Assembly (NCBI RefSeq): GCF_014844075.1
Contig: NZ_CP062165.1
Span: 2,604,001 to 2,668,000, forward strand
Length of the DNA stretch: 64,000 nt
Source: Paenibacillus sp. JNUCC-31
GTDB lineage: Bacteria; Bacillota; Bacilli; Paenibacillales; Paenibacillaceae
Direction: 5' to 3'
Part shown: piece after piece, positions 3,813 through 59,672 of the stretch
Layout: each line of letters starts with the position of its first letter
How positions within the stretch are numbered: position 1 is the stretch's first letter
The notes under the pieces: model-generated
What the model was told of the DNA's origin: nothing
Databases searched by the model: none
The model's input: only the letters and a program-made list of their open reading frames with translations
Translations under genes and position numbers: made by a program

Positions 3813-5372
3813 TTAATGTCCGCCTGTATATTCTCCCTGCTCCTCGCCAATGACCATCTTCTCCTTACCCATGAAGAACGCAGCAATTAATGCGAGCGCT
3901 GCCGGAATCGCAGCCCAAGCAAAGAGCTGCACGATGGAGGAAGACAATGCATGCGTAATGGCATCCAGCACCTGTGGCGGGATCGCCTTTCTCAGCTCTG
4001 GCGACAGCAACGCATGCGGATCGCTCAGATCCACTCCCTGAGGTACACCGCCTGCTGGAGCACCGGCGCTACCCGCTTCCGCCGCTGATCCGGCGAGGGC
4101 ATCGTTCATTTTGCGCGTAAATACCTGGCTCTGCACGATACCAAAGATCGTAATCCCCATCGTCATGCCGAGTGACCGCAAAAAGTTAAGCGTGGAACTC
4201 GCAGCACCGCGTCTTTGCGGTTCAAACGAGTTCATGGCTGCATTGCTAAGCACCGAGAACGAAGCTCCAACACCAAGACCTATCATCACCATGTAAATAC
4301 GTATCGTCCAGAGGGAAGAACCCTCATCCAGTGTGGTTAACAACCCGAGGCCAACGACCAGCAGGGCCAATGTAGGAATCATAATGTTACGATACTTGAT
4401 TTTGGTCATGAGTACCCCACCCATAGAGGCGGTTACGACAGAACCCAGCATCATGGGCAGCAGAACGAGTCCGGAATTGGTCGCTTTGCCGCCGAGCACG
4501 CCCTGAATAAAGATCGGAATGTACACGGATGCCGTAATAAATGCCGCGCCACTGAACATGCCAATGACGTTACTGGACCAGTACACCCGGTTGCGGAACA
4601 TGCCGAAGGAGATAATCGGTTCCTTGGCTCTTGTTTCCGCAAACAGGAAAAGCAGCGCCAGCACTACAAATCCGGCAAACAATCCGATAATCTGCCACGA
4701 TCCCCAGGCGTATGTTTTGCCACCCAGCTCAAGACCGAAGATCAGACAAACCACAGCACCAATCAGCGTCACTGCACCCAGCCAATCAATCTGTTGGGAC
4801 TGATGCTGATGAGATTCTTTGTAGAAAAATGCAATAAACACAAATGCAACCAGGCCAAGCGGCAGATTGATATAAAATACCCATTCCCATGTCGCATACT
4901 GTGTAATGTAAGCACCCAGCAGCGGACCGAATACGCTGGACAAGCCAAACACAGCTCCAAACAAACCGCCTAATTTGCCCCGGGATTCAGGCGCGACCAC
5001 ATCAAACATAATGGTAAAGGCAATCGGCACCAATGCACCTGCACCAATACCCTGAATAGCTCTGTACATCGTCAGTTCAACAATCGAAGTTGCCGTTCCG
5101 CATAATGCTGACCCAAGCATAAACACAATAATGCCAAATACAAAAAACTTCTTCCTTCCGTACATGTCGGATAATTTACCAAAGATCGGCATACCGGCCA
5201 TCTCGGCTACCATATACGCGGAGGTCACCCAGACGAACTTGTCGAGACCGCCCAGCTTCCCGACAATATCCCCCATTGCCGTTGCCACGATGGTATTGTC
5301 CATCGAAGCCATCAGTATGCTCAGCAGTAACCCTGCCAGCACCAATCCAATATTGTTTTTACGTGCAACCAT
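3813..5372 (-). CDS. MFS drug:H+ antiporter, DHA2 (14-TMS, EmrB/QacA) family
   Basis: A 519-residue integral membrane exporter. Hallmarks are the first-helix motif with DNTIVATAM (about 25-33), motif A after TM2 (GKLSDMYGRKKFF), the antiporter motif C region around GLSSVFGPLLGAYI, and enough hydrophobic segments for 14 helices. Members expel cationic drugs, bile salts or antibiotics using proton exchange; the substrate cannot be told from sequence. A hydrophilic Gly/Ala/Ser-rich loop (about residues 425-450) precedes the last helix, common in this family. The start has GGAGAG at suitable distance. No TetR or MarR regulator lies beside it, and the gene appears monocistronic, ending at the shared terminator. 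Confidence 0.92.
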   Translation of the reverse strand: MVARKNNIGLVLAGLLLSILMASMDNTIVATAMGDIVGKLGGLDKFVWVTSAYMVAEMAGMPIFGKLSDMYGRKKFFVFGIIVFMLGSALCGTATSIVELTMYRAIQGIGAGALVPIAFTIMFDVVAPESRGKLGGLFGAVFGLSSVFGPLLGAYITQYATWEWVFYINLPLGLVAFVFIAFFYKESHQHQSQQIDWLGAVTLIGAVVCLIFGLELGGKTYAWGSWQIIGLFAGFVVLALLFLFAETRAKEPIISFGMFRNRVYWSSNVIGMFSGAAFITASVYIPIFIQGVLGGKATNSGLVLLPMMLGSVVTASMGGVLMTKIKYRNIMIPTLALLVVGLGLLTTLDEGSSLWTIRIYMVMIGLGVGASFSVLSNAAMNSFEPQRRGAASSTLNFLRSLGMTMGITIFGIVQSQVFTRKMNDALAGSAAEAGSAGAPAGGVPQGVDLSDPHALLSPELRKAIPPQVLDAITHALSSSIVQLFAWAAIPAALALIAAFFMGKEKMVIGEEQGEYTGGH

Positions 5373-5444: not shown

Positions 5445-6140
5445 TCAGTCCAAGGACCGATTGCTTTGCACCAAAACTTCCGATAGCGGATGAATTTGCA
5501 GAGAAGAGCGGTATTCCACTGTACCAATCCGGCAGCCGGGGCCAATTTTTATTTTATCCCCTCGAACAACTTCTGCCTCGGTGTACTCCAATTCGATATC
5601 GTCACCTTCGATCATTTCTACCTTGAGTACCGATTTCTGCCCCGAAAATAAACCTTCGAACAGTTTGCCCTTGCCGCTCTTCACTGAAATGATAGATCCA
5701 CCCATTTCCCTGACCTCGGATGGCCCCATGATTCTGAGTGTCATTTGTTCGGCGCTGAGCATACCTGCTATCGTAAAACGGCCGTTTAGCTTCATATCCT
5801 CCACCTGACAATCGCCTGACACATGAAACTCCCCTACCACTTTCATATGTTCAGCTTTTGCATGTAGGTTAGGAGCATAATTGCCCTCCTGATCTTCGTC
5901 GCCGGCAGCAGCCCGCTCTTTCAGGGTAAGGGTTCCCGTAATTTTGATATCGGTTGATTCAAGAGATCCATATATAACCGATGTGCCAGTACATTTGAAT
6001 TGATCACACAACAGATTATCGTTAAATGAGGAATCCCCCACTACCTTGACCTTTCCGTACACACCACCAGAAGAACTGCCGTCGCCGATGATGCTAATAT
6101 CATGTTTTTTATCCATTGAACTCGCAAAATGGTTATTCAA
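5445..6140 (-). CDS. yhbF: Bactofilin-type polymer-forming protein, second copy (YhbF/BacF-like)
   Basis: A beta-helix-rich protein of the bactofilin kind: repeated short strands with alternating hydrophobic residues and Gly turns (VYGKVKVVGDSSF, SVIYGSLESTDIKITG). It is homologous to the preceding gene product and both end with the same pattern, ExDDIELExTEAEVVRGDKIKIGPGC. In B. subtilis the yhbD-yhbE-yhbF operon has this order, and YhbE/YhbF (BacE/BacF) are reported bactofilins needed for flagellar assembly. The start is uncertain: the open frame runs to a TTG at 6170; TTG at 6140 or GTG at 6149 have AAAGGG or GGAG upstream; ATG at 6116 begins the conserved MDKKHDISIIG. I give 6140 as a compromise. 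Confidence 0.8.
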   Translation of the reverse strand: MNNHFASSMDKKHDISIIGDGSSSGGVYGKVKVVGDSSFNDNLLCDQFKCTGTSVIYGSLESTDIKITGTLTLKERAAAGDEDQEGNYAPNLHAKAEHMKVVGEFHVSGDCQVEDMKLNGRFTIAGMLSAEQMTLRIMGPSEVREMGGSIISVKSGKGKLFEGLFSGQKSVLKVEMIEGDDIELEYTEAEVVRGDKIKIGPGCRIGTVEYRSSLQIHPLSEVLVQSNRSLD

Positions 6141-12785: not shown

Positions 12786-14042
12786 TTAAGCGTTCTTCGC
12801 CGCCACATGCTCTTCAATCAATGTAGCTACCAGGGACACTGCTTCGTCAATCTCTTCCTTGCTCACATACAGATTCGGAAGCAGACGAATGACATTCGGT
12901 CCTGCGGATACAAAGAGAATGCCTCGCTTCTGACCAGCAAGCACGATGTCGCCTACCGCTTCAGCACATTCAATTCCGACCAGCAGACCCATACCCCGTA
13001 CTTCTTTTACAAACGCATTACCTGTCAGGCGCTCCCGCAGGGAGTTCATCAGGTATTCGCCCATTTCAGCTGCACGCTCTGGCAGGTGGTCTTCCAGCAT
13101 CGTTTCAATCGTTGCAATGACAACAGAGGAAGCAAGCGGTGTGCCGCCAAACGTCGTTGCATGGCTGCCCGCCGTAAACGCATCCTTCAGATAACCTTTA
13201 CCCAGCATCGCACCTACAGGGAATCCACTGCCAATACCTTTGGCTACCGTGAAAATGTCTGGCTCAATGCCATAATGCTCATGCGCGAACAATTTACCTG
13301 TACGTCCCATTCCCGTCTGCACTTCGTCTACAATCAACAGCAGTCCGTGCTCTTCACACAGTTTCCGAACATGGTGGACAAAATCCGGCTTGACTGGGTG
13401 CACACCACCCTCGGCTTGCACCATTTCCAGCATAATCGCTGCTGTATGGGGTCCAATCGCCGATTCAAGTGCCGCTGTGTCATGCAAGGGTACAGTTACG
13501 AATCCGGCTGGCAATGGCAAAAATCCTTCTTTCACCTTATCCTGCCCGGTTGCCGTTAATGTTGCGAGTGTCCGTCCGTGGAAGGACTGGGCAAATGTAA
13601 TGACTTCGTACCGATCTGTACCCTTCACCTTCTGGTGATAGCGACGAGCCAGTTTAATGGCCGCTTCGTTCGCTTCTGCACCGCTGTTACAAAAGAACAC
13701 GGCATCTGCGCACGTATTTGCTGTCAACAAAGTGGCTGCTTTTTCCTGACCCGGAATCTGGAACAAGTTAGAGACATGCCACAGCTCATCTATTTGAGCT
13801 TTCAGCTTGGCTCCTACCTTCTCCGGTGCATGGCCCAGGCTCGTTACAGCCAATCCGCACATAAAATCGAGATAACGGTTGCCCTGATCATCCCATAACC
13901 AGCTGCCTTTTCCCTTGACCAGACTAATCGGATAACGTGCATACGTTTGGAAAAGAGAGCTTTCCGTCTGGGCCGCTGCCCCTGTCGCCGCTACGCCCGC
14001 TACTGCTGTGCCAGAACCTGGCTGTTCATTGCCTTTTGCCAT
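12786..14042 (-). CDS. argD: Acetylornithine transaminase
   Basis: PLP-dependent class III aminotransferase making N-acetylornithine from N-acetylglutamate semialdehyde. In the 418-residue protein Lys268 in FTVAKGIGSGFP binds PLP, Asp239 in IVDEVQTG contacts the cofactor, and NSGAEANEAAIK (119-130) is the phosphate-site region. Residues 1-28 form an Ala/Gly/Thr-rich extension before the usual start near LFQTYARYPI; it looks disordered and is not a targeting signal I recognise. AAGGAG lies 9 bases before the ATG at 14042; a GTG directly upstream is in frame. A structured repeat lies between this gene and argB. Confidence 0.95.
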   Translation of the reverse strand: MAKGNEQPGSGTAVAGVAATGAAAQTESSLFQTYARYPISLVKGKGSWLWDDQGNRYLDFMCGLAVTSLGHAPEKVGAKLKAQIDELWHVSNLFQIPGQEKAATLLTANTCADAVFFCNSGAEANEAAIKLARRYHQKVKGTDRYEVITFAQSFHGRTLATLTATGQDKVKEGFLPLPAGFVTVPLHDTAALESAIGPHTAAIMLEMVQAEGGVHPVKPDFVHHVRKLCEEHGLLLIVDEVQTGMGRTGKLFAHEHYGIEPDIFTVAKGIGSGFPVGAMLGKGYLKDAFTAGSHATTFGGTPLASSVVIATIETMLEDHLPERAAEMGEYLMNSLRERLTGNAFVKEVRGMGLLVGIECAEAVGDIVLAGQKRGILFVSAGPNVIRLLPNLYVSKEEIDEAVSLVATLIEEHVAAKNA

Positions 14043-14162
14043 CACCTATCACTCCTTATTTGTTGGTACACTCCTAAGGTGAATAAAACATAACACTAGA
14101 CCACTTGATTGCAGTCCACCTTCCGAACATATGCATACTTCCACTTCGATGACAGAACAACC

Positions 14163-14330
14163 TTCCGATCGCTGTTATCCCCAGATTTCTTCAATTCATT
14201 TTTAAAGGTGGAAATCCAGTGATAAAGGCGCACGCTCCGCTTCTTCAGGTTATTTCTGTCCTCTCCGTTCTCGCGTTGATGTCTTCAGATTGGTTCTGCA
14301 CTCTTCGTTATCGTGCTATGGCAGATTCAC
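14163..14330 (+). repeat. Structured intergenic repeat, copy 1 (argD-argB spacer)
   Basis: It begins TTCCGATCGCTGTTATCC and carries an imperfect stem (TTATC at 14175-14179 with GATAA at 14221-14225; GATTTC with GAAATC), then GCGCACGCTCCGCTTCT. Two further copies are at 15329 and 22354 in the same orientation. Only this copy has a near-duplicated tail (CTTCAGGTTATTTCTG... and CTTCAGATTGGTTCTG...). The rest of the 354-base spacer shows nothing else. Confidence 0.8.
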
Positions 14331-14396
14331 AAAAATCGAGTACATATTTTTTTATATAATATAAGACTTTTAAGACTCTAGCGTATTGAGAGCAAG

Positions 14397-15236
14397 TTAA
14401 TGCATACGCATAATTCGGGTTCCGATCGTTTCTCCGCCAAGCACACGGCTCAGGATCTGTGGTTCGCTGCCGTCTACGATGACGACCTCACGCACTTTGC
14501 CGTGAATACAAGCGATGGCTGCGCGTACCTTCGGAATCATGCCGCCGTAGATTTCTCCAGTTTGGATCATATCCTCAATCTCCTGTACGGAAACGGATGC
14601 CAATACTTTTTTCTCGCCGCCTACGGTCTTCATGATGCCAGGAACATCGGTTACTACGATCATCCGGCTAACTCCGAGATGAGAGGCTACCGCACCTGCG
14701 GCTGTATCTGCGTTGATGTTATAACGTTGGCCTGATGCATCCACACCAACTGGCGCAATAACTGGCATATAGCCCATGTTTACGATACCTTGAATAATCT
14801 CCGCATTAACGCCCGTTACGTCACCTACCCAGCCAATCTCTGCATGGTTGGTAACGGGTTTCGCCTGTATCAGACCACCGTCCACACCCGACAAGCCCAG
14901 CGCACGTCCACCGACACGTTGGATCAGGCGTACGATCTGTTTGTTGATACTCCCCGCAAGAACCATTTCCACCACATCCAGCACGGGTTCTGTCGTCTTG
15001 CGCAATCCGTTCACGAACTCGGTCTCAATGCCCAGCTTCGCCAAGTTATCCGAAATCGCAGGGCCACCGCCATGCACGATGACAGGCTGAGTCCCTTGGG
15101 ACTGCAAGTCACGCAGATCTGCAAAAAAGGATTCAGGCAATGCCGCCAACGTGCTGCCTCCGCATTTCATGACAAACGTCTGCTTCTCGGCACCTGACTC
15201 AGCTCCGGCACTCTCATTTTGCAATGTTGAATTCAT
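14397..15236 (-). CDS. argB: Acetylglutamate kinase
   Basis: Phosphorylates N-acetylglutamate, the usual control point of the pathway. The 279-residue protein has the amino-acid-kinase features KCGGSTL near residue 24, the substrate loop VHGGGPAISDNL, and the C-terminal GGMIPKVRAA. It has no long N-terminal helix of the kind that mediates hexamer formation and arginine feedback in some acetylglutamate kinases; only a short Glu/Ala-rich leader of about 18 residues is present. ATG at 15236 has AAAGGAG 7 bases upstream. Repeat copies lie on both sides of the gene. Confidence 0.96.
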   Translation of the reverse strand: MNSTLQNESAGAESGAEKQTFVMKCGGSTLAALPESFFADLRDLQSQGTQPVIVHGGGPAISDNLAKLGIETEFVNGLRKTTEPVLDVVEMVLAGSINKQIVRLIQRVGGRALGLSGVDGGLIQAKPVTNHAEIGWVGDVTGVNAEIIQGIVNMGYMPVIAPVGVDASGQRYNINADTAAGAVASHLGVSRMIVVTDVPGIMKTVGGEKKVLASVSVQEIEDMIQTGEIYGGMIPKVRAAIACIHGKVREVVIVDGSEPQILSRVLGGETIGTRIMRMH

Positions 15237-15328
15237 GAGGGCACTCCTTTCATTTAAAAAATTCTAAAGGGCTTAACACTTAATTGATGCGATAATTGAT
15301 GGCTGACCGTTCCGAATCCGGATCGTTC

Positions 15329-15450
15329 TTTCGATCGCTGTTGTCTCCAGGTTTTTTTGAATCCCTCTTTGGAGGGAAAAACCCGGAGACAAAGGCGAAC
15401 GCTCCGCTTCTACAGAATCGATTCCGTCTTCTCCACTGACTTCACCAGTG
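15329..15450 (+). repeat. Structured intergenic repeat, copy 2 (argB-argJ spacer)
   Basis: This copy folds best: TTGTCTCCAGGTTTTT (from 15341) pairs with AAAAACCCGGAGACAA (to 15392) with one mismatch, closed by an inner CCCTC/GAGGG hairpin. AGGCGAACGCTCCGCTTCT follows. Compared with copies 1 and 3, stem changes occur on both strands (A-T to G-C pairs), keeping the pairing. Nothing else was recognised in the 323-base spacer. Confidence 0.85.
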
Positions 15451-15559
15451 TTCAACTACCAAATAAAGTTCAATCCTTATACATTTTCTATATATTATTT
15501 GTGAAACAGCTTCTCGTAGGGAAGCTGTTAGCTTCAATAAAATTAATTCAAAATATTTA

Positions 15560-16798
15560 TTACGTGCGGTATGCCGCGTTAATTCGTACATAGTCATACG
15601 TCAGGTCACAGCCCCAAGCGGTAGCTGTTCCCTTGCCGTGGTGCAGATCGACCACGATGCGTACGGTATCCGTCTGCAAGTAGGCCAACGCCGCTTCTTC
15701 GTCAAATACGACCGGACGGGACTGTGCAAGTACAGAAATATCTCCCAGACGGATATCAACCGTCTCCGGGTTGACTGGCTGCCCTGCGCGCCCTACAGCT
15801 GCAATAATACGTCCCCAGTTGGCATCCGCGCCAAACATGGCGGATTTCACCAGGCTGGAGCCAATGACGGTCTTCGCAATCGCTTGCGCGGATTCATCAC
15901 TAACTGCACCTGTAACCTGTACCTCAACCAGCTTCGTTGCTCCTTCGCCATCACGTGCAATGGCTTTGGCAAGCACTTCGCACACATAAGTAAATCCGGC
16001 AGCAAAAGCTTTCCAATCCGGATGTTCCACAGTCAGTTCTTCATTGCCTGCCAGACCACTGGACATCGCTACAAGCATGTCGTTTGTGCTTGTATCTCCA
16101 TCCACTGTAATCATGTTGAAGGTATGGTTGGTCGCCTGGCGCAGCAGGCGCTGCAACGCTTCTGCGCCAATGACCGCATCTGAGGTCATAAAGGCCAACA
16201 TGGTCGCCATATTCGGATGAATCATCCCCGATCCCTTGGCGGCACCTGCAATTGTAATCGTTTTGCCGTTCACTTCAACGGCGACGCAGGCTTCTTTTTT
16301 CACCAAATCGGTTGTCAGAATAGCTTGGGAAAAATGCTCCGCTTCTTCTTCTTCCTTGCCCATGTGTGCCGGAAGGCCGCTAATCCCCGAGTGCACAGCG
16401 TCCATCTTCAGCAATTCACCAATGACACCTGTGGAGGCGACAGCAACATCCTCTTCCGCTACACCCAATTCACGTGCAGCCGCCGTACGCATGGCGTAGG
16501 CATCCTCTTCGCCTTGTTGCCCGGTACACGCATTGGCGTTGCCGCTGTTCACGATGACTGCCTGAAGGCGTCCATTGCTCAAGCTCTCACGTGTGACTTT
16601 CAGAGGCGCGGCCTGGAACACGTTCGTTGTATACACCGCGGCAGCGGTAGCTGGAACGTCACAGCGGATCGCTCCGATGTCGTTGCGAGATGTTTTTTTC
16701 AAACCACAATGCAGTCCGCCAGCAGTAAACCCGCGCGGGGTTACAATCGTTCCGTTCTCAACTATCGTAAAAGCCTTTTGCTCCACATTCGTTCCCAT
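15560..16798 (-). CDS. argJ: Bifunctional ornithine acetyltransferase / N-acetylglutamate synthase
   Basis: Moves the acetyl group from N-acetylornithine to glutamate, recycling it; bifunctional forms also use acetyl-CoA. The 412-residue precursor carries the self-cleavage site HPNMATMLAF with Thr199 as the new N-terminal nucleophile of the beta chain, and the VNSGNANACTG and STGVIGELL stretches. Having argJ explains why no argA or argE is present in the cluster. GGGGG precedes the ATG. A short possible ORF lies between argC and this gene. Confidence 0.96.
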   Translation of the reverse strand: MGTNVEQKAFTIVENGTIVTPRGFTAGGLHCGLKKTSRNDIGAIRCDVPATAAAVYTTNVFQAAPLKVTRESLSNGRLQAVIVNSGNANACTGQQGEEDAYAMRTAAARELGVAEEDVAVASTGVIGELLKMDAVHSGISGLPAHMGKEEEEAEHFSQAILTTDLVKKEACVAVEVNGKTITIAGAAKGSGMIHPNMATMLAFMTSDAVIGAEALQRLLRQATNHTFNMITVDGDTSTNDMLVAMSSGLAGNEELTVEHPDWKAFAAGFTYVCEVLAKAIARDGEGATKLVEVQVTGAVSDESAQAIAKTVIGSSLVKSAMFGADANWGRIIAAVGRAGQPVNPETVDIRLGDISVLAQSRPVVFDEEAALAYLQTDTVRIVVDLHHGKGTATAWGCDLTYDYVRINAAYRT

Positions 16799-16811
16799 AT
16801 GTTATCCCCCG

Positions 16812-16904
16812 TTATGCGTTCGGCTGCATGCCGATGATCCGCTCGCTTAGCTTGATCCGATTCTCCTTAGCTGGTTCCGGAATGACGTCTGCACGCTCTT
16901 CCAC
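16812..16904 (-). CDS. Possible 30-residue peptide between argC and argJ
   Basis: A GTG at 16904 (or TTG at 16907) follows the argC stop by 11 bases. AAGGA at the argC stop is 8 bases before the GTG. The frame encodes a hydrophilic, charged peptide starting (M)EERADVIPEP and ending IIGMQPNA, and stops 13 bases before the argJ start. Together with the flanks it fills the whole spacer and would be translationally coupled to argC. I do not recognise the sequence; it could also be a remnant or chance. Confidence 0.4.
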   Translation of the reverse strand: MEERADVIPEPAKENRIKLSERIIGMQPNA

Positions 16905-16915
16905 CAAACCAATCC

Positions 16916-17965
16916 TTACGGATATACCGGCGTCATGTTCAGCCCGAGGTTCTCCTCCCATCCCATCATCAGGTTCATATTTTGAATCGCTTGCCCGGAT
17001 GCACCTTTCACCAGGTTGTCAATAACCGAAATGATCGTCAAACGACCTGTACGAGGGTCAGCGGCAAATCCGATATCACAATAGTTCGATCCGTACACTT
17101 CCTTGGTTGAAGGCCAGATCCCCGGCTCACGCACACGCACGAAAGGCCGATTCTCATAATATTTGCGATACAGATCAATGATTTCACGGTCACTGTGTTC
17201 GCCAGTTAGTTTGGCATACATCGTACTCATGATCCCACGCGTCATCGGCACCAGCTGCGTTGTGAATGTTACTGTGACTGGAGTTCCAATGATATTGCCC
17301 AGCACTTGCTCAATTTCAGGAATATGCTGATGTTTATTGAGTTTGTATACTTTGAAATTCTCATTCATTTCTGCATAATGATTCGTCAGACTTGTTCCCC
17401 GTCCCGCACCCGATACACCGGATTTGGCATCAATGATGATACTGGAAGGATCAATCCATCCCGCCTCAACAGCTGGAATCAAGCCGAGTAACGTAGCCGT
17501 CGGGTAACAGCCTGGGTTGGAAATAAAGCTTTTGCCCTTCACTTCGTCTCCATACACCTCTGCCATGCCGTATACCGCCTGTTCCAGCAATGAAGCAGAT
17601 GGTGCCGGGTGTTTATACCACTCTTCATACACCGTTCCATCCTTGAGTCTGAAATCTCCAGACAGATCAATGACTTTAAGACCTGCTTCAAGCAGGCTCG
17701 GAACGAGTTTCGCGCTTACACCAGACGGGGTTGCTGTGAACACCAGATCTGCACGACTTGCGATCTCAGCCGGGTCTACTCCGTCGAGTGGCCTATGAAT
17801 CACGTCCGTCAAATGCGGGAATCCATCTGCGATGGACTCACCACTGCTGGATGAAGAGATTACCGAAGTAATTTCAACCTGCGGATGGTTCTGGAAAAAA
17901 CGAATCAGCTCCACCCCGCCGTAGCCGGTGGAACCGACGATTGCCACTTTTAATTTGTTATTCAC
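16916..17965 (-). CDS. argC: N-acetyl-gamma-glutamyl-phosphate reductase
   Basis: NADPH-dependent reduction of N-acetylglutamyl phosphate to the semialdehyde. In the 349-residue protein the NADP loop is GSTGYGG (11-17) and the catalytic Cys153 lies in SNPGCYPTA. It is the first gene of the arginine operon. The start is GTG at 17965 with GGGGGAG 5 bases upstream. The promoter about 100 bases upstream carries an ARG-box-like sequence, so repression by ArgR/AhrC with arginine is likely; no argR gene is in the window. Confidence 0.96.
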   Translation of the reverse strand: MNNKLKVAIVGSTGYGGVELIRFFQNHPQVEITSVISSSSSGESIADGFPHLTDVIHRPLDGVDPAEIASRADLVFTATPSGVSAKLVPSLLEAGLKVIDLSGDFRLKDGTVYEEWYKHPAPSASLLEQAVYGMAEVYGDEVKGKSFISNPGCYPTATLLGLIPAVEAGWIDPSSIIIDAKSGVSGAGRGTSLTNHYAEMNENFKVYKLNKHQHIPEIEQVLGNIIGTPVTVTFTTQLVPMTRGIMSTMYAKLTGEHSDREIIDLYRKYYENRPFVRVREPGIWPSTKEVYGSNYCDIGFAADPRTGRLTIISVIDNLVKGASGQAIQNMNLMMGWEENLGLNMTPVYP

Positions 17966-18052
17966 TCTCGCTCCCCCAATCTCGTTGTATGCGCTACTTA
18001 TACTGTTCTCCTGCTCTCAATGAGCCTTCATACAGCAATTCCGTCGCTTCTA

Positions 18053-18097
18053 TGCATATTTGTGTATTATTATACGACTCTAGTTATATAAATACAA
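18053..18097 (-). promoter_or_regulatory. arg operon promoter and ARG-box-like operator
   Basis: On the minus strand: -35 TTGTAT (18092-18097), 17-base spacer, -10 TATAAT (18069-18074). The sequence TGCATATTTGTGTA (18053-18066) just downstream of -10 matches the ArgR/AhrC half-site consensus TGNATWWWWATNCA at 12 of 14 positions and would cover the transcription start. The rest of the 330-base spacer to cls shows nothing else firm. Confidence 0.65.
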
Positions 18098-18295
18098 CAC
18101 TCTCTCATCAATTTCACATGGATTCTTATGGCTCCCGAACATATCTTTCCAACATCTGCGGACGAACCGGGATACTTCTGCTAAAATACGTATTATAGGA
18201 AACATTACAACCAGGGTCTAATTCATAATCAATCTACACGAGGAAGGGTTTATGAATGGATTCATGATGGTCATTATGAAACATGGGGGACTACA

Positions 18296-19744
18296 GTGCA
18301 TATCGAATCCATTTTACTTGTTGTACTCCTGGGCCTGAATATTATTTTCGCTGCGGCGGTCGTCTTCTTCGAACGAAAGGATGCGAGTGCATCCTGGGCC
18401 TGGCTGCTTGTCTTGAACTTTATTCCGGTGTTCGGGTTTGTACTCTATCTATTAACAGGGCAAAATCTGACGCGCTACCGGCTTTTCCAGTGGAAAGAGC
18501 GCAAGAAACTCGGGCTTGAAGAACGTATTGCTAGCCAGCTTGAACAGCTGCACGACAATCGGACACCGTTCCGTAACCAAGCGACAGAGAGCAGTCAGGA
18601 CATGATCTATATGAACCTGAAGCAGAACGATGCTCTACTGACTGAAGACAATGCGGTCGAGATTATTACCGACGGGACAGACAAATTCCAGCGATTACTC
18701 GATGATATCGAGGCAGCGAAGGATCATGTTCATGTGCAATATTACATTTATAGAGGTGACCGACTCGGCAAAAGAATCCGGGATGCACTCATCCGCAAAG
18801 CGCGGGAAGGCGTCAAGGTTCGTCTGCTATATGACGCGCTGGGATCACGGCGGGTATCCAAACGCTTTTTCAAAGAGTTGCGCGAAGCAGGTGGCTTAGT
18901 TGAAGTCTTTTTCCCATCCAAATTCAGTCTGATCAACTTGCGTATGAACTATCGAAATCATCGTAAAATTGTCATCATTGACGGTAACCTTGGATATACA
19001 GGCGGGTTTAATGTAGGAGATGAATATCTTGGTTTGAACTCCAAGTTCGGATACTGGCGAGATACTCATTTGCGTATTCAGGGGAACGCCGTTCATGCGC
19101 TTCAGACCCGTTTTCTTCTGGATTGGAATGAAGCGTCCAAACAGCATGATACTCCGTATGTTCCGGCGCATTTCCCACATATTGAGGGGACAGGAACAAC
19201 GGCCATGCAGATTGTGTCCAGCGGACCGGATGCAGAGACAGAGCACATCAAGAATAGTTATCTGAAGATGATCAATGGAGCCAAACACTCCATTCTGATT
19301 CAGACGCCTTATTTTATCCCGGATGCCAGTGTATTCGAAGCCATTCGTCTTGCGTGCCTGTCAGGGATTGATGTTCGCATTATGATTCCCAATAAACCGG
19401 ATCACGCCTTCGTATATTGGGCTACGCTATCTTATATCGGTGAGTTGTTAAAAGTGGGCGCTACCGTATTCATCTACGATAATGGCTTCATTCATGCCAA
19501 AACGCTTATTATCGACAGTATGGTCGCATCTGTGGGAACGGCTAATATTGATTACCGCAGCTTCCGATTGAACTTTGAGGTCAATGCATTTATGTATGAT
19601 GAGGCCATTGCGACTGCACTTGTGCAGACGTTTGAACATGATCTTCTTGTTTCCCGTGAGATGACACTGGAGGAGTACAATAAACGCAGTGTGAAGATCC
19701 GCTTCAAAGAAGCGATCTCTCGTCTGTTGTCTCCGATTCTGTAA
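18296..19744 (+). CDS. cls: Cardiolipin synthase, phospholipase D type
   Basis: Condenses two phosphatidylglycerol molecules to cardiolipin at the membrane. The 482-residue protein has two N-terminal TM helices (about 3-25 and 34-53) and two HKD motifs: His222/Lys224/Asp229 and His400/Lys402/Asp407, each followed by the expected GGFN or GTANID segment. The length is that of bacterial ClsA/ClsB-type enzymes. The start is GTG at 18296 with GGGGGA 5 bases upstream. It is monocistronic on the plus strand, diverging from argC. Confidence 0.95.
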   Translation: MHIESILLVVLLGLNIIFAAAVVFFERKDASASWAWLLVLNFIPVFGFVLYLLTGQNLTRYRLFQWKERKKLGLEERIASQLEQLHDNRTPFRNQATESSQDMIYMNLKQNDALLTEDNAVEIITDGTDKFQRLLDDIEAAKDHVHVQYYIYRGDRLGKRIRDALIRKAREGVKVRLLYDALGSRRVSKRFFKELREAGGLVEVFFPSKFSLINLRMNYRNHRKIVIIDGNLGYTGGFNVGDEYLGLNSKFGYWRDTHLRIQGNAVHALQTRFLLDWNEASKQHDTPYVPAHFPHIEGTGTTAMQIVSSGPDAETEHIKNSYLKMINGAKHSILIQTPYFIPDASVFEAIRLACLSGIDVRIMIPNKPDHAFVYWATLSYIGELLKVGATVFIYDNGFIHAKTLIIDSMVASVGTANIDYRSFRLNFEVNAFMYDEAIATALVQTFEHDLLVSREMTLEEYNKRSVKIRFKEAISRLLSPIL

Positions 19745-19870
19745 TAGCAGATATGCGTTGCAGACCAGACAAACTACCGATTCATGTTATTCGGTGATTT
19801 TCTCTGTCCATAACGTCCATCGATAAGATTTTAATTTAATATTTAATTGTCGCCATAAGTAATTTCAATA

Positions 19871-19921
19871 AAAAAGCAGGGACGACCTCGCCAGATCCGG
19901 CTGAGACTGTCCCTGCTTTTT
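19871..19921. terminator. Bidirectional terminator between cls and the YitT-family gene
   Basis: Arms AAAAAGCAGGGAC (19871-19883) and GTCCCTGCTTTTT (19909-19921), fully complementary, with A and T tracts on the two sides. Confidence 0.9.
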
Positions 19922-19961
19922 ATATACAGATGATTCATGAAATATACTATGGTATGCGTAT

Positions 19962-20867
19962 TTACGTGTGTTCGCGCTTAAAGCCTTCGCCAAGCACTTC
20001 ATGCGCATTACTAATGATGACAAAAGCCCCTGGGTCTACCGACCGGATTAATGCTTTTAATCTCGGTACCTCATTTTGCCCAACCACAACCATCAGTACG
20101 GTTCGCTGATCATCGGTGTATCCGCCTTTTGCCTCCAGCTTCGTCAATCCGCGATCCAGATCTTCGAGAATCACCTTCGTAATCGGTTCGATCTGGTTAG
20201 AGATAATGTACGCCACCTTGGAGTACCCCAATCCCATCTCTACGGCATCAATGACTTTCCCTGTAACGTACAACCCAATCAGCGCATAAAGCGACTGCTC
20301 CAATGACAATACAAAGGCTGCCATAATAATGACTGTAGCATCCATAATCACGACGCAAAGAGAGTAACTCAGTCCACTGTACTTTTGCACGATTCTGGCG
20401 AGGATGCTCATGCCTCCTGTTGAACCTCTCCCCCTGTATACAATCCCAATACCAAGTCCAACCCCAATTCCTCCATAAAGAGAACCGAGCAGCGGATTCG
20501 TTGTTGGAATAGCCCAGTCTTTCGTGAGATAGACAAACAGTGGAAGCACAATACTTCCGAGCACTGAACGGATACCATACTGCTTGCCAATCAGGAGAAA
20601 ACCTGCGATCAGAAGAGGAATATTAATGGCCCACTGGGTATAAGCCGGTTCAAGCCCCAGCCAATGTTTGCCCAATATCGATAACCCGGATACTCCGCCT
20701 GACGCAATCTGGTTTGGAAGTAAGAATAAATTAAAGGCCACGGCAATCAAAAACGAACCTAAAATGATGGATGCGGTATCCACGACATTTCTCCAGGGGC
20801 CGTTCAGGGGGATGAGGGTGGTCAACCTCTTTTTGCGATTATTGTGTAAATGCTGTTGCTGCTGCAT
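19962..20867 (-). CDS. YitT family membrane protein (DUF161 plus DUF2179)
   Basis: A 301-residue protein with five or six hydrophobic segments forming the YitT membrane domain (about residues 25-215) and a C-terminal cytosolic DUF2179 domain (about 220-295, with RGLTKLEAKGGYT and VIISNAHEVLGEGF). The transported solute, if any, is not established for this family. ATG at 20867 is preferred (AAAGGAG upstream); the frame continues to a TTG at 20903 that would overlap the prfB terminator. The gene lies only about 35 bases after that terminator, so it may depend on read-through or a promoter in or near the hairpin. Confidence 0.88.
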   Translation of the reverse strand: MQQQQHLHNNRKKRLTTLIPLNGPWRNVVDTASIILGSFLIAVAFNLFLLPNQIASGGVSGLSILGKHWLGLEPAYTQWAINIPLLIAGFLLIGKQYGIRSVLGSIVLPLFVYLTKDWAIPTTNPLLGSLYGGIGVGLGIGIVYRGRGSTGGMSILARIVQKYSGLSYSLCVVIMDATVIIMAAFVLSLEQSLYALIGLYVTGKVIDAVEMGLGYSKVAYIISNQIEPITKVILEDLDRGLTKLEAKGGYTDDQRTVLMVVVGQNEVPRLKALIRSVDPGAFVIISNAHEVLGEGFKREHT

Positions 20868-20901
20868 GTCATCGTGCTCTCCTTTTTTTGTATATATGCT
20901 C

Positions 20902-20965
20902 AAAAAAAAGCCCCTGTATACACCAGCATACGCCTACACGTATCGGGTCTATACAGGAACTTTTG
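20902..20965 (-). terminator. prfB terminator
   Basis: On the minus strand CCTGTATA (20950-20957) pairs with TATACAGG (20913-20920) across a 29-base loop, followed by a U tract (A8 at 20902-20909 on plus). It begins within 10 bases of the prfB stop. Confidence 0.75.
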
Positions 20966-20966
20966 A

Positions 20967-22080
20967 TTAATCGGTATCTACTTTAATCTGGCTGCGCAAA
21001 TAACCATCGATGAATCCATCGAGGTCGCCATCCATAACTGCTCCTGTGTTTCCAGTCTCCACGCTCGTACGGTGATCCTTTACCATACTATAGGGATGGA
21101 ATACATAGGAGCGAATCTGGCTACCCCACGCAATATCCGACTGTTCTCCTCGGATTTCGTCCAGCTGTTGTTTTTGTTCTTCAATTTTACGTTCATATAA
21201 TTTGGAACGAAGCATCGTCATCGCTCGCTCACGGTTCTTGATCTGTGAACGTTCATTCTGACACGTTACCACCACACCTGTTGGAAGGTGAGTAATCCGT
21301 ACGGCTGAGTCGGTGGTATTGATATGCTGTCCACCCGCGCCACTCGCACGATACGTATCGATCTTGAGATCTTCTGTTCGAATGTCCAATTCAATCGTGT
21401 CATCAATCTCAGGCACCACATCACAGGATACGAAGGAAGTATGCCGGCGTCCAGAGGAGTCAAAAGGTGAGATCCTCACCAACCGGTGAACCCCCTTCTC
21501 AGCTTTCAGATACCCATAAGCGTTATGCCCCTTGATGGATAACGTTACACTCTTGATTCCTGCCTCATCGCCTGCCAGATAATCCAGTACCTCCACCTTG
21601 AAGCCGCGCTTCTCGGCCCAACGTGTATACATCCGCATCAGCATCTGTCCCCAGTCCTGTGACTCGGTACCCCCAGCACCGGGGTGAAGCTCCAGAATGG
21701 CATTCATCTTGTCATACGGCTGATTCAGGAGAAGCTGTAACTCGAACTCTTCTACCTTGCTCACGATGGCCGTCACACTGTTGGCGATCTCAACGGCCAG
21801 ATCATCGTCGCCTTCTTCATCAGCCAGCTCTGCCATCATCACGGCATCGTCATAATCCTGCTGCAGCTTGGTGTATTGATCCACAGATCCCTTTACCGCA
21901 TTCAGCTCAGCGATTAAAGATTGGGCCTTATCATTATTATCCCAGAAATCCGGGGCGGACATCTTCACCTCGAAGTTCTCGATCATCTCTTGCTTCAGAT
22001 CTAAGTCAAAGAGACCCCCTAAGATTTGTTAGTTTCTTGCCTATTTCACGCAGGTCCTGCTTCACGCTTGGATCGATCAT
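20967..22080 (-). CDS. prfB: Peptide chain release factor 2, with programmed +1 frameshift
   Basis: RF2 releases peptides at UGA and UAA codons. Translation starts at ATG 22080 ([14 protein letters not shown]), reads 24 codons to CTT at 22009-22011, meets in-frame UGA (22006-22008) and must shift +1 to continue with GAC at 22005-22007, giving 370 residues. The shift site CTTTGAC (22005-22011) and the upstream anti-SD-pairing AGGGGG (22015-22020) match the classical autoregulatory element. The GGQ motif ([11 protein letters not shown]) and the stop-recognition SPF region ([13 protein letters not shown]) are intact. It follows secA, as in B. subtilis. Confidence 0.97.
22005..22020 (-). promoter_or_regulatory. 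prfB programmed frameshift site
   Basis: On the mRNA, AGGGGG, three bases, then CUUUGAC. The internal Shine-Dalgarno and slippery CUU-U preceding UGA form the known RF2 feedback element: low RF2 slows termination and favours the +1 shift. Confidence 0.96.
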
Positions 22081-22210
22081 GTGCAATTCCTCTTTTCATT
22101 AAGATAAGCTCCCCGCATCCAGGGCATTCCTTCAGATCAAGTATCCGATGTTTCACCCTGGAGTCCAGGTTACCTTTATATCGGCAATCCCTTCTCCATG
22201 AACATGGTCA

Positions 22211-22226
22211 CATAGTTATAACTATG
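22211..22226. promoter_or_regulatory. Perfect 16-bp palindrome upstream of prfB
   Basis: CATAGTTATAACTATG is exactly self-complementary and lies 130 bases upstream of the prfB start. It could be an operator or simply AT-rich symmetry; no regulator is indicated. Confidence 0.3.
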
Positions 22227-22353
22227 CACCAATGACAGGTTGTGCATCCTTCACTTGATCATTTAGAATACCCGGCCGCAAGGAGCCGTTCATGTCATTC
22301 TATTTAAGTTGATCCAGCATTCGTTACACCTTACCACTCCAATTACAGTAGCA

Positions 22354-22470
22354 TCTTCCGATCACTCTTATCCCCAGATTTTCTTGATTCCCTTTCACAA
22401 GGGAAAAATCCGGTGATAAATGCGAACGCTTCGCTTCTCCAGATTGCTTCTGCACTCTCCGTTATGGTGT
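22354..22470 (+). repeat. Structured intergenic repeat, copy 3 (secA-prfB spacer)
   Basis: TTCCGATCACTCTTATCCCCAG, an outer stem (TTATC at 22367-22371 with GATAA at 22414-22418; GATTTT with AAAATC-type pairing) and an inner CCCTT/AAGGG hairpin, then GCGAACGCTTCGCTTCTCCAGATT. The inner stem differs from copy 2 (CCCTC/GAGGG) by a compensated pair. Confidence 0.8.
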
Positions 22471-22521
22471 AAAAAATTCAGATCCAACTTATACGCAGGG
22501 TAATATATGAGAGTCGTTTAA

Positions 22522-25026
22522 CTACTCTTGACCGTGACAGTGTTTGAACTTTTTGCCGCTGCCACATGGACAAGGATCGTTACGTCCGATCTGGTCAGAC
22601 ACTTTTACCGGACGTTTCTCCGCAGGTTCGCCGCTGGTCGAGATCTGACTTTCGTCCACAACCGCCTGACGCTCCTGATTGCTCTCGATTTGCGCTCTCA
22701 TCACATAGGTTGCCACTTCTTCCTGGATCGAAGCAATCATCTGATGGAACATTTCGAAGCCTTCGAACTGGTACTCACGCAGCGGATCTGTACCGCCGTA
22801 AGCACGAAGGTGGATACCTTGACGCAATTGATCCATCGCATCAATGTGATCCATCCATTTGCTATCTACTGCACGGAGCACAACCACTTTCTCGAACTCA
22901 CGAACCATCTCTTCACCGATTCGTTCTTCACGTGCATTGTACTTGTTCTGAACTTTCTCAAACAGGTAATCGATAATCTCTTCGGCTTCCTTGCCCCACA
23001 GATCATCCTTCGTTACGGAGCCTTCATCCAGCAATTTGCTGTTCATGTAGTCAGCAACTTCCTGCAGTTCCCAGTTTTCCGGAATATCGTCACCGCAATG
23101 CGCTTCGACGATGCGTTCAATGGAAGGTTTGATCATATCCATAACAATTTGTTTGATATTCTCGGACTCAAGCACCTCGCGACGCTGTTTATATATAATT
23201 TCACGTTGTTGGTTCATGACATCATCATATTGGAGAACGACTTTACGTACGTCAAAGTTATTACCTTCAACCCGTTTTTGTGCCGACTCTACCGCACGGG
23301 TAATCATCCGGCTCTCAATCGGTTGGTCTTCTTCAAAACCAAGACGCTCCATCATGTTCAATACATTGTCTGCACCAAAACGTTTCATCAGCTCATCACC
23401 CAGTGACAGGTAGAACTGTGTGGAACCCGGGTCACCCTGACGTCCTGCACGTCCGCGCAGCTGGTTATCAATCCGGCGAGATTCGTGACGCTCTGTACCA
23501 ATGATATGAAGACCGCCCACTTCAGCGACACCTTCGCCCAGGATAATATCTGTACCCCGTCCAGCCATATTGGTTGCAATCGTCACCGCGCCTGCTTGAC
23601 CTGCACCTGAGATGATTTCCGCTTCTTCAGCGTGGTACTTGGCATTCAATACCTGGTGTCTGATTCCACGGCGTTTCAGCATGTCTGAAAGACGCTCGGA
23701 GTTCTCAATCGATACCGTACCAACCAGAACCGGCTGGTTCTTGCTGTGACGTTCCACGATTTCTTCCACAACCGCTTTGAACTTGCCGTCGATGCTCTTG
23801 TACACCACATCAGCCATATCATTCCGTTTGTTCGGACGGTTGGTTGGAATTTGCAATACTTCAAGACCATAGATTTTTTTGAACTCTTCTTCCTCAGTCT
23901 TCGCTGTACCCGTCATTCCCGCAAGCTTGCGGTACATCCGGAAATAGTTCTGGAATGTAATCGTAGCAAGTGTCATGCTCTCGTTCTGTACTTCAATGCC
24001 TTCTTTGGCTTCAATCGCCTGGTGTAGTCCATCGCTATAACGACGGCCTGCCATCAGACGGCCAGTGAACTCATCGACAATCAGTACTTCCTCATCACTC
24101 ACCACATAATCGACGTCACGACGCATGATTACGTTGGCTTTCAACCCCTGTACGATGTGATGGTTGAGCGTAACATTGGCATGATCATACAAGTTTTCGA
24201 TACCAAACGCTTTCTCCGCCTTCGCCACACCAGCTTCAGTCAACGCTACGGATTTCACCTTGATGTCCACCGTAAAGTCTTCTTCTGGAACCAAACGTTT
24301 CACGAAACGGTCAGCTGCGTAGTACAGGTCTGTCGATTTCTGAGCTTGTCCCGAAATGATCAGAGGTGTACGCGCCTCATCGACCAGAATGGAGTCCACT
24401 TCATCAATGATACAGAAGAACAATGGACGCTGTACCATCTGCTCTTTGTACAACACCATGTTGTCACGCAAATAGTCAAAACCGAATTCGTTATTCGTTC
24501 CGTACGTAATATCACATGCATAAGCATGTTGCTTCAACGCATGGTCCATACCGCTCAGGTTAACCCCTACCGTCATGCCCATGAATTCATAAATTTGTCC
24601 CATTTCCTGGCTATCCCGTTGAGCCAAATAATCATTGACCGTTACCACGTGTACACCTTTGGACATCAATGCATTCAGGTATACCGGGAGTGTTCCTACC
24701 AGTGTCTTACCTTCACCCGTCTTCATCTCTGAAATCCGGCCTTCATGCAAGGCAATGCCTCCGAGCATCTGTACGTCATAGTGACGTTTGCCCAGTACAC
24801 GGCGAGATGCCTCACGTACGGTTGCAAATGCTTCCGGAAGAAGTTCATCCGTAGTTTCTCCCTTTTCAATGCGGGCACGGAATTCATCCGTTTTGGATTT
24901 CAGTTGTTCATCAGACAGAGCCTGAAATTGTGGTTCCAGTTTATTGATCACATCGACTGTCTTCATCAGACGTTTAACATCACGTTCGTTCATGTCGCCG
25001 AAGATCTTTTTGACAAGTCCTAGCAT
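22522..25026 (-). CDS. secA: Preprotein translocase ATPase SecA
   Basis: Motor of the Sec export channel; here it serves the many secreted and SLH proteins of the window. The 834-residue protein has Walker A MKTGEGKT (101-108), the [19 protein letters not shown]-like region, the preprotein-binding domain, the second helicase half ([20 protein letters not shown]) and the C-terminal zinc-binding tail [14 protein letters not shown]. The length fits Gram-positive SecA1. The gene order hpf-secA-prfB matches B. subtilis. Confidence 0.98.
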
Positions 25027-59502: not shown

Positions 59503-59622
59503 TTGAAACCTCCATACATAGATTTCCATTATGTTATAGTATAGACGCTTTTTAGGTAAAGGAAGTTTCAAAGAGGTAACTTTTAATGAAATTTAATGAT
59601 TTCTTGAATAAGAACATAACAA

Positions 59623-59659
59623 AAAACAGCCTTGCATCTTATTGATGCAAGGCTGTTTT
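59623..59659 (-). terminator. Terminator of the 971-residue S-layer-like gene
   Basis: Perfect 16-bp stem on minus: AAAACAGCCTTGCATC (59644-59659) with GATGCAAGGCTGTTTT (59623-59638), 5-base loop, followed by U2 and a further U-rich tract from the arm. Confidence 0.93.
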
Positions 59660-59672
59660 AGGAAGATATGGA

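Follow-up and report, generated by a model that had tools for sequence, protein, structure and literature searches.

Structured repeats in the arg and secA–prfB spacers

The window, by which we mean the whole 64,000-nucleotide stretch of Paenibacillus sp. JNUCC-31 DNA analyzed, holds three copies of a structured repeat, two in successive spacers of the arg genes and one between secA and prfB (Table 1). A repeat finder run on the window returned them as D1, its first and longest direct-repeat family, and their gene context was set with a simple, purpose-written ORF caller. Because all five neighboring genes lie on the minus strand, the RNA form of the copies is the reverse complement of the plus strand. 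The cores of copies 2 and 1 end 68 nt and 96 nt before the start codons of argB and argD, respectively. The core of copy 3 lies 56 nt beyond the secA stop codon and 345 nt before the predicted start of prfB, although the true prfB start may be further upstream.

Table 1 Cores of the three repeat copies and their neighboring genes
Feature	Position in window	Strand	Evidence
copy 1 core (subfamily A), argB/argD spacer	14139..14271	-	R1 match, 137.5 bits, E 2.4e-32
copy 2 core (subfamily B), argJ/argB spacer	15305..15439	-	R1 match, 144 bits, E 5e-34
copy 3 core (subfamily A), secA/prfB spacer	22332..22465	-	R1 match, 128 bits, E 6.9e-30
argD, downstream of copy 1	12786..14042	-	Pfam Aminotran_3 and context
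argB, downstream of copy 2 and upstream of copy 1	14397..15236	-	Pfam AA_kinase and context
argJ, upstream of copy 2	15560..16798	-	Pfam ArgJ
prfB, downstream of copy 3	20967..21986	-	Pfam PCRF and RF-1
secA, upstream of copy 3	22522..25026	-	Pfam SecA domains

With its outer arms, placed by eye, copy 2 spans ~15273-15484, and the minus strand of 15300-15480 folds at -65.7 kcal/mol (z -3.8). The outer arms of copy 3 reach ~22308-22497; here the minus strand of 22320-22510 folds at -53.5 kcal/mol (z -2.6), with UUACACC/GGUGUAA arms paired. In copy 1 a second, like outer stem unit encloses the core at ~14091-14330 (by eye, not folded alone), and such nested units are also present in spacers elsewhere in this genome and in relatives. 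An earlier note on this DNA had pointed to stems that change in step among the copies, and the changes are there in the sequence: where copies 1 and 3 pair TTATC with GATAA, copy 2 pairs TTGTC with GACAA; copy 2 also has GGTTT/AAACC in place of GATTT/AAATC; and its inner CCCTC/GAGGG corresponds to CCCTT/AAGGG in copy 3.

A covarying fold, probably in the sense RNA

The element comprises a ~135 nt core within an imperfect hairpin of 190-240 nt. Starting at the base, the outer arms are followed by an internal loop of GGA facing GGA, then a variable stem and a second internal loop, GAA/GGA, which opens into a junction bearing a very small hairpin, GC-NNN-GC. Beyond the junction come the UCGC/GCGA stem, the CU/CA loop, and a second, long variable stem ending in the apical hairpin. 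In this genome, the outer arms of subfamily A (TATATAAGTTGAACTAAA..TTTACAC / GTGTAAA..TTTAGTTCAACTTATATA) form terminal inverted repeats, found at 46 sites with at most 2 mismatches versus 15 for the reversed pattern; those of subfamily B are unlike them.

The earlier note read the paired changes as the mark of a conserved, covarying hairpin family and proposed a many-copy alignment as a check. Such an alignment bears the reading out: among 32 copies, compensated changes fall in 19 of 33 pairs, and double changes fill 125 cells, whereas shuffles give 33 ± 9 and slid structures no more than 10. One of five covariation measures, the number of further pair types, was not above the shuffles. A second set, of 37 rows matched to the model, has covariation in 24 of 32 pairs.

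Whether the hairpin belongs to RNA or DNA had been left open; the hairpin stands, and the evidence favors sense RNA over DNA as its folded form. Of 102 copies, 91 fold more stably as sense than as antisense, against 65 of 101 in the control, and mean energies are -45.7 kcal/mol sense versus -39.9 antisense (control, -34.4 versus -32.6). Wobble pairing was counted in 80 of the 102 copies, long and short variants being left out: a conserved G-U pair is found in 51 of 80, and G-U cells outnumber A-C cells by 106 to 34, or by 55 to 34 without one wobble-rich pair. Identity as an intrinsic terminator, a hairpin followed by a T-run, was rejected, since a run of six or more T near the 3' end occurs in only 10 of 102 copies and a simple terminator scan at the copies found only weak stems of 5-8 pairs.

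Family size, position, and direction

A covariance-model search of the genome, also proposed as a check, uncovered many further copies: 103 matches span the model (best E ~1e-35), a few of them internally shortened. This count is 114 matches less 11 antisense mirror matches, with 6655747-6655815 not among the fetched copies; 150 of 2643 first-look candidates were scored for it, and a complete re-read of 400 kb gave the same 16. The 102-copy set used for this genome is 120 matches less 17 mirror matches and one duplicate, while the set from other Paenibacillus starts from 95 matches, of which 8 mirror matches and 7 close to the end of a locus were dropped, leaving 80 copies, 79 with genes on both sides. 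Of 198 genomes sampled from the order, at least 142 contain matches.

A known RNA family was rejected on the lack of any Rfam match at the gathering cut-off in the 64-kb window; a permissive search of 14000-15600 (copies 1 and 2) gave sub-threshold microRNA and snoRNA matches alone. Nor did we find the family in literature on Paenibacillus repeats, palindromes, MITEs, and structured RNAs, a search that covered subscription journals poorly. This is a large and apparently undescribed family of folded, intergenic RNA repeats of Paenibacillus and its relatives.

Overlaps of more than 30 nt with a predicted gene are absent both here (0 of 102 copies) and in other Paenibacillus (0 of 80). Between co-directional genes, a count of orientation, as the earlier note had suggested, gives a sense:antisense ratio of 73:10 in this genome and 53:10 in other Paenibacillus. 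Enrichment in such spacers is modest: they hold 83 of 102 copies and make up 66% of the spacer length (p 0.001). The idea that, within long spacers, the element's 3' end is anchored to the start codon was rejected, the signal being weak here (23 of 33, p 0.035) and not replicated elsewhere (11 of 20). Downstream genes are of many kinds, and the 20 sampled in this genome share no common pathway, a diversity on which a metabolite riboswitch for one pathway was likewise rejected.

Turnover in Paenibacillus and insertion in a distant genome

Copies are kept at orthologous spacers in 12 of 13 and 9 of 12 cases, yet copies also swap variants, invert, and vanish; the secA–prfB slot is occupied in 19 of 30 loci, this genome included. 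Inverted arms, a scar, an in-place inversion, solo ends, tandem arrays, and empty sites between a stop codon and a ribosome-binding site are all seen in this genome, one empty site giving at most a hint of a TATA target. Only 2 of 102 flanks pass as flanking duplications, both of them tandem duplications, and none was found among 71 named Paenibacillus copies (the 80 minus L271 with three tandem copies, L277 with two, L229 with one, and the short or weak L244, L254, and L264). No transposase or other partner was found at the solo ends inspected in this genome. An arm-pattern scan returned mostly the elements' own and truncated ends, and the one candidate region for an autonomous partner held no transposase.

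Genome G114, from the distant genus g33, has 38 matches, 30 of them with loci studied, and these 30 resemble one another (identity 0.86 at the median and 0.96 at most), with arms inverted at both ends (AGACTGTTGATAAAG / CTTTATCAACAAACT). Direct repeats of 20-39 bp, specific in sequence to each site, flank 19 of the 30, compared with 0 of 142 mismatched pairs of left and right flanks. All 19 repeats fold as hairpins, and a T-rich stretch follows the right-hand repeat in 11 cases and the left-hand one in 3. The upstream gene runs in the element's direction in 23 of 29 cases; sense and antisense copies number 11 and 6 (p 0.33), without a preferred distance to a start. Downstream of the gene orthologous to that at one insertion, 13 other genomes have no element (genes 51-58% identical), and several of them have, by eye, a single terminator-like hairpin at that site. 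Clearly, the element has recently inserted into terminator-like hairpins in G114, and the whole hairpin has been duplicated. We know of no precedent for an insertion target rule of this kind. Among the sets examined, hairpin duplications were confined to G114.

Fixed low-copy sites in genus g33

The thirteen other g33 genomes with matches, chosen for low counts, carry 1-3 copies each, mostly fixed at ilvC–leuA (occupied in 12) and citZ–icd (occupied in 10), always sense. Most fixed copies lie ~50-60 nt before the next start, that at L449 ~95 nt. Double changes are found in 10 of 39 and 5 of 30 predicted pairs, one of the ten in a doubtful side hairpin, and flanking duplications in none of 22 fixed sites. 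Ancient orthology of these copies was rejected, since outside g33 the element occupies 1 of 24 ilvC–leuA spacers (L478, antisense, the match not weak) and 0 of 30 citZ–icd spacers.

A probable mobile element with a folded RNA form

Mobility of the family is well supported. Among the options offered by the earlier note (a dispersed non-autonomous element, a signal for mRNA processing or stability, or a protein-binding site), the first is best supported, by the G114 insertions with duplicated hairpins, the terminal inverted arms, the empty sites, and the inversions. Family, structure, strand, orientation, and persistence were computed directly, as was hairpin duplication in one genome. However, stems at the fixed g33 sites still covary, which mobility alone explains poorly. 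Also weighing against this reading are the confinement of hairpin duplications to G114, the persistence of copies at orthologous sites in this genome, the lack of any partner at the solo ends inspected here, and an empty-site comparison for G114 with genes no more than 51-58% identical. We give a probability of about 0.5 to a non-autonomous mobile element whose conserved form is a folded RNA, the fold keeping copies harmless and sometimes useful. An enzyme supplied in trans would recognize the folded element and a hairpin as its target; the element would then insert into a terminator-like hairpin, with the whole hairpin doubled on both sides. Once inserted along transcription, the fold would keep the copy harmless, sometimes useful, inside mRNA, such that old copies remain in operon spacers. 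The enzyme, the insertion pathway, transcription, and service to the host are what we infer. Some old copies may serve their operons; the sense bias and the copies retained over long times agree with a putative role of some members at the mRNA level.

A more specific account is possible, if tentative: a mobile structured-RNA element would target transcript-end hairpins and duplicate the whole hairpin along transcription, possibly via its own RNA (for example, by reverse transcription and hairpin joining), with descendants kept as intercistronic RNA modules in some lineages.

Somewhat more doubtful is that the family serves the host first and foremost: a folded RNA between cistrons would punctuate the operon's mRNA by shielding ends or marking a processing boundary, thereby tuning neighboring cistrons, and mobility would be no more than the means of its spread. 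Persistence at orthologous spacers speaks for it, as do the always-sense, doubly changed g33 sites and the smallest gap to a downstream start, 43 nt, among copies in sense or divergent position. Further, where foldable ilvC–leuA spacers lack the element, 20 of 21 form strong structure from other sequence, compared with 36 of 80 controls. Yet citZ–icd spacers without the element are not clearly above that control (15 of 25); spacers too short or long were left out (3 of 24 ilvC–leuA, 5 of 30 citZ–icd), and the control was held to similar length limits. G114, in the same genus, shows spread into gene ends with neither a clear sense preference nor a preferred start distance, and the two operon sites are nearly devoid of the element outside g33. 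The diverse downstream genes, the weak start-codon anchoring, and the partly filled secA–prfB slot also count against a host module.

An element acting at the DNA level is unlikely. Here a transposase on single-stranded or cruciform DNA would use the element fold and hairpin targets, and covariation would stem from arm-to-arm copying, which agrees with the duplicated G114 hairpins, the in-place inversion, and the leading-strand direction of 79 of 102 copies (the terminus region being set after the distribution was seen). The difference in stability between strands and the prevailing G-U pair argue for RNA instead, and on the lagging strand, too, orientation tracks the gene, albeit in small numbers (7 sense, 2 antisense). 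Marginally less likely again is a regulator recognized by a dedicated protein that controls translation, termination, or decay, with the GGA/GGA and GAA/GGA loops and the hairpin at the junction as its binding site: blocks such as GGAGAAGCGNAGCG and the facing GGA remain similar while stems vary at unrelated sites, but mean column identity is about equal in unpaired (0.72) and paired (0.70) positions and the sampled downstream genes share no pathway.

Small structured intergenic repeats in bacteria are usually labelled selfish or regulatory without a clean test. The present family shows both ends within one order: fresh insertions in G114, and one to three long-kept, covarying copies at two metabolic operons. 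It thereby opens two testable questions, namely which enzyme inserts the element into a hairpin, and whether a leftover folded spacer sets the protein ratios of an operon.

Comparison with known systems

The terminal inverted repeats of subfamily A and G114 make the element MITE-like; we do not file it as a MITE because it lacks a short target-site duplication of fixed length, the G114 duplications being hairpins of 20-39 bp and varying length. REP sequences with RAYT are 20-40 bp palindromes beside a Y1 transposase, whereas the element here is at least 135 nt. Group IIC introns are mobile RNAs with intrinsic terminators as insertion sites, to our knowledge without whole-hairpin duplication; the present element would share mobility in RNA form at terminator hairpins, yet the window has no Rfam match. 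In the ilv-leu operon of Bacillus subtilis, RNA structure at the ilvC end sets the amounts of the operon's parts, a position like that of the element, which among the loci examined is sense there only in g33.

BOX elements are defined by boxA-boxB-boxC modules of streptococci, and ERIC and Correia repeats belong to hosts other than Paenibacillus. As described for Streptococcus pneumoniae, BOX elements are dispersed and modular, with a predicted fold with paired inverted ends and nested repeat insertions (PMC3049150), all features with which the present element compares by description. It differs from BOX in genus, probably in sequence, and in copies that covary and follow the sense of co-directional genes; the repeats tabulated in that source are over-represented between convergent genes (PMC3049150). 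ERIC and Correia are described there as structured repeats that may alter transcript cleavage in operons, ERIC in an orientation-dependent manner (PMC3049150), and the likeness, again by description, is that of a structured repeat inserted in operons. The MITE-like bcr1-bcr3 of the Bacillus cereus group frequently occupy UTRs or the spacers of operons; in two strains, mRNAs included 40-51% of the bcr copies overall, and bcr3 correlated with decay rate (PMC3446304). Compared with bcr1-bcr3 as that source describes them, the present family is set apart by its hairpin duplication and its low-copy fixed sites (PMC3446304).

A dispersed repeat family with a covarying fold

The earlier note had described three structured repeats with compensatory stem changes, in arg and secA-prfB spacers. 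All three are real, their sequences being present in the window and listed by a repeat finder. They occupy the argB-argD (copy 1), argJ-argB (copy 2) and secA-prfB (copy 3) spacers and lie on the minus strand, sense relative to argJ-argB-argD and secA-prfB. With copy 2 as query, blastn returned 41 places, and the consensus fold of a 32-copy alignment has 32 pairs, 18 of them showing compensated changes. Covariation beyond chance was borne out by a 33-pair version, in which 125 double-change cells were counted, whereas shuffles gave 33 ± 9 and partner-slid controls no more than 10; further pair types in this version were not above shuffles. Further copies also exist: a covariance model, used to score 150 of 2643 first-look candidates, gave 103 model-spanning matches in the JNUCC-31 genome besides 11 antisense mirror matches, and a full re-reading of 400 kb gave 16 matches, equal to the first search there.

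Two subfamilies are set apart by the outer stem: ACGGAGAGGACAGAA.. with arms TATATAAGTTGAACTAAA..TTTACAC in A, and GTAGTGGAGGGGACGGAATCGATTCT.. with different arms, which pair, in B. Further in, both have a GGA/GGA internal loop followed by a stem and then by a GAA/GGA internal loop; two pairs lead to a junction that bears a small GC-NNN-GC hairpin, and beyond it lie UCGC/GCGA, the CU/CA loop and a long stem ending in an apical hairpin. The junction hairpin reads AC..GT at 10/10 citZ-icd copies and at one copy of this genome (L030). Longer variants carry an additional arm of ~35 nt, and nested copies, in which a stem unit encloses another, include window copy 1. Solo or truncated ends without a full core were seen at six loci (L392, L399, L404, L405, L406 and L409).

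Coordinates of individual arrangements and of other repeats in the window
Locus	Position	Feature
L271 (Paenibacillus polysaccharolyticus)	2182-2906	Four core-pattern matches in tandem array; period 221, 3.3 copies, 92% matches
L097 (this genome)	4089-4226 and 4423-4561	Element pair ~200 nt apart, facing away from each other; similar pairs in other species at L229 and L277
L339 / L379	1393-1525 / 5799-5970	Same spacer in this genome and relative G078; element in opposite orientation
Window	42232-42548	Clustered G+C-rich direct repeats of palindromic look (CGGTCGTGCCACGCG..), families D9 and D19
Window	59324-61807	Direct repeats (D4, D6, D10, D11), several and diverged, 29-41 nt long; some copies also elsewhere in window; possibly a repetitive coding region

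Does the fold act as RNA or DNA? Paired columns hold 106 G-U against 34 A-C combinations, or 55 against 34 once a single pair that is G-U in 51/80 copies is removed, and sense RNA is predicted to be more stable than antisense for 91/102 cores (65/101 control windows), although p-values overstate independence because the copies share ancestry.

Position, direction and persistence

By our own ORF caller, which predicts ~80% of one 400-kb stretch as coding, gene overlap never exceeds 30 nt in the 102 copies. Of these copies 73 are sense to both neighbors, 10 antisense, 11 in divergent and 8 in convergent spacers; for 79 copies from named Paenibacillus records the counts are 53, 10, 12 and 4, respectively. 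On the lagging strand, seven copies run along the gene and two do not. The core of sense and divergent copies ends at least 43 nt upstream of the start codon, most commonly 50-69 nt. The inferred terminus region, 23% of the chromosome, is poor in copies: 3/102, or 4/103 counting one not fetched.

We compared 30 loci, one from this genome and 29 from relatives, which were the 30 best matches among 60 genomes searched. The element occupies argJ-argB in all 30, as subfamily A in some species and B in others, and argB-argD in 28, the remaining two having spacers of 51-53 nt. The secA-prfB slot is occupied in 19/30. Across 400 kb, 12/13 scorable elements also occur at the matching position in a relative with ~90% DNA identity, and 9/12 in one with ~82%. 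Variants alternate at a single site, and one element is inverted in place, its outer flanks unchanged. Judging by some empty sites, the element lies after the stop codon and ahead of the ribosome-binding site; one empty site carries a scar.

Covariance model matches occur in 40/59 sampled genomes and, order-wide, in 142/198 genomes and 26/43 genera. One exact core pattern lies in at least 120 stretches; among the matches listed, 80/80 are Paenibacillus by title.

In 13 genomes of g33, a distant genus of the order, picked for low counts, each has one to three matches. The element stands in ilvC-leuA in 12/13 and in citZ-icd in 10/13, all sense, mostly ~50-60 nt upstream of the next start (~95 at L449; five loci were read by eye where the script chose a wrong downstream ORF). 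Among these orthologues the long stem differs almost wholly in sequence with pairing retained, and the sense strand is predicted to be the more stable in 12/12 and 8/10 copies, respectively. Outside g33 the element appears in 1/24 ilvC-leuA spacers, antisense (L478), and 0/30 citZ-icd spacers. Other sequence folds strongly in 20/21 element-free ilvC-leuA spacers (controls 36/80); for citZ-icd, 15/25 is not clearly above control. In genera without the repeat, the spacer from ilvC to leuA shows by eye another two recurring families of hairpins whose ends are conserved, GGTCGGCTTGA..GAGCCGTACCTTTTT and GCGGCCGTG..GAGCCGC (L455, L456, L459, and L463, L466, L468-L473); they are possibly separate conserved RNAs.

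Probable insertion into hairpins

Evidence for mobility comes from G114, a genome with 38 matches that is placed in g33, although the single protein compared is only 51-58% identical. The 30 copies studied (L515-L544) are alike, with median identity 0.86 (0.65-0.96); 12 are convergent, 11 sense and 6 antisense. The upstream gene is co-directional with the element in 23/29; the 11:6 split between sense and antisense is not significant by itself, and the distance to a start varies widely. Direct repeats of 20-39 bp, differing site by site, flank 19/30 copies, against 0/142 for mismatched left and right flanks, and all 19 fold as hairpins; the left and right hairpins of a site often have different loops, with pairing in the stem preserved. 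T-rich sequence follows the right copy in 11 cases and the left in 3; arms AGACTGTTGATAAAG / CTTTATCAACAAACT sit between hairpin and core. Five further copies have weaker repeats (scores 10-16) at similar positions. The plain reading is that these elements inserted into a terminator-like hairpin and that the whole hairpin was duplicated, the outer copy often keeping the T-run. Such repeats were found at 2/102 copies in this genome, both tandem duplications, at 0/22 fixed g33 sites and at 0/71 named Paenibacillus copies; copies lacking them may be older, or may have arrived by another path.

Probable mechanism and known systems

We infer that a factor supplied in trans would recognize the folded element plus a hairpin target. 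Since terminators point with transcription, directional insertion there would alone make most copies sense, explaining part of the bias without a host function. Copies staying in mRNA would be kept folded, which would either render them harmless or let them mark a boundary within the operon. Covariation at the low-copy sites argues that the element may serve the host in at least some cases. None of the papers listed by our literature search dealt with the present family. Comparable dispersed structured repeats are described in other Gram-positive bacteria as bcr (PMC3446304) and BOX repeats (PMC3049150).
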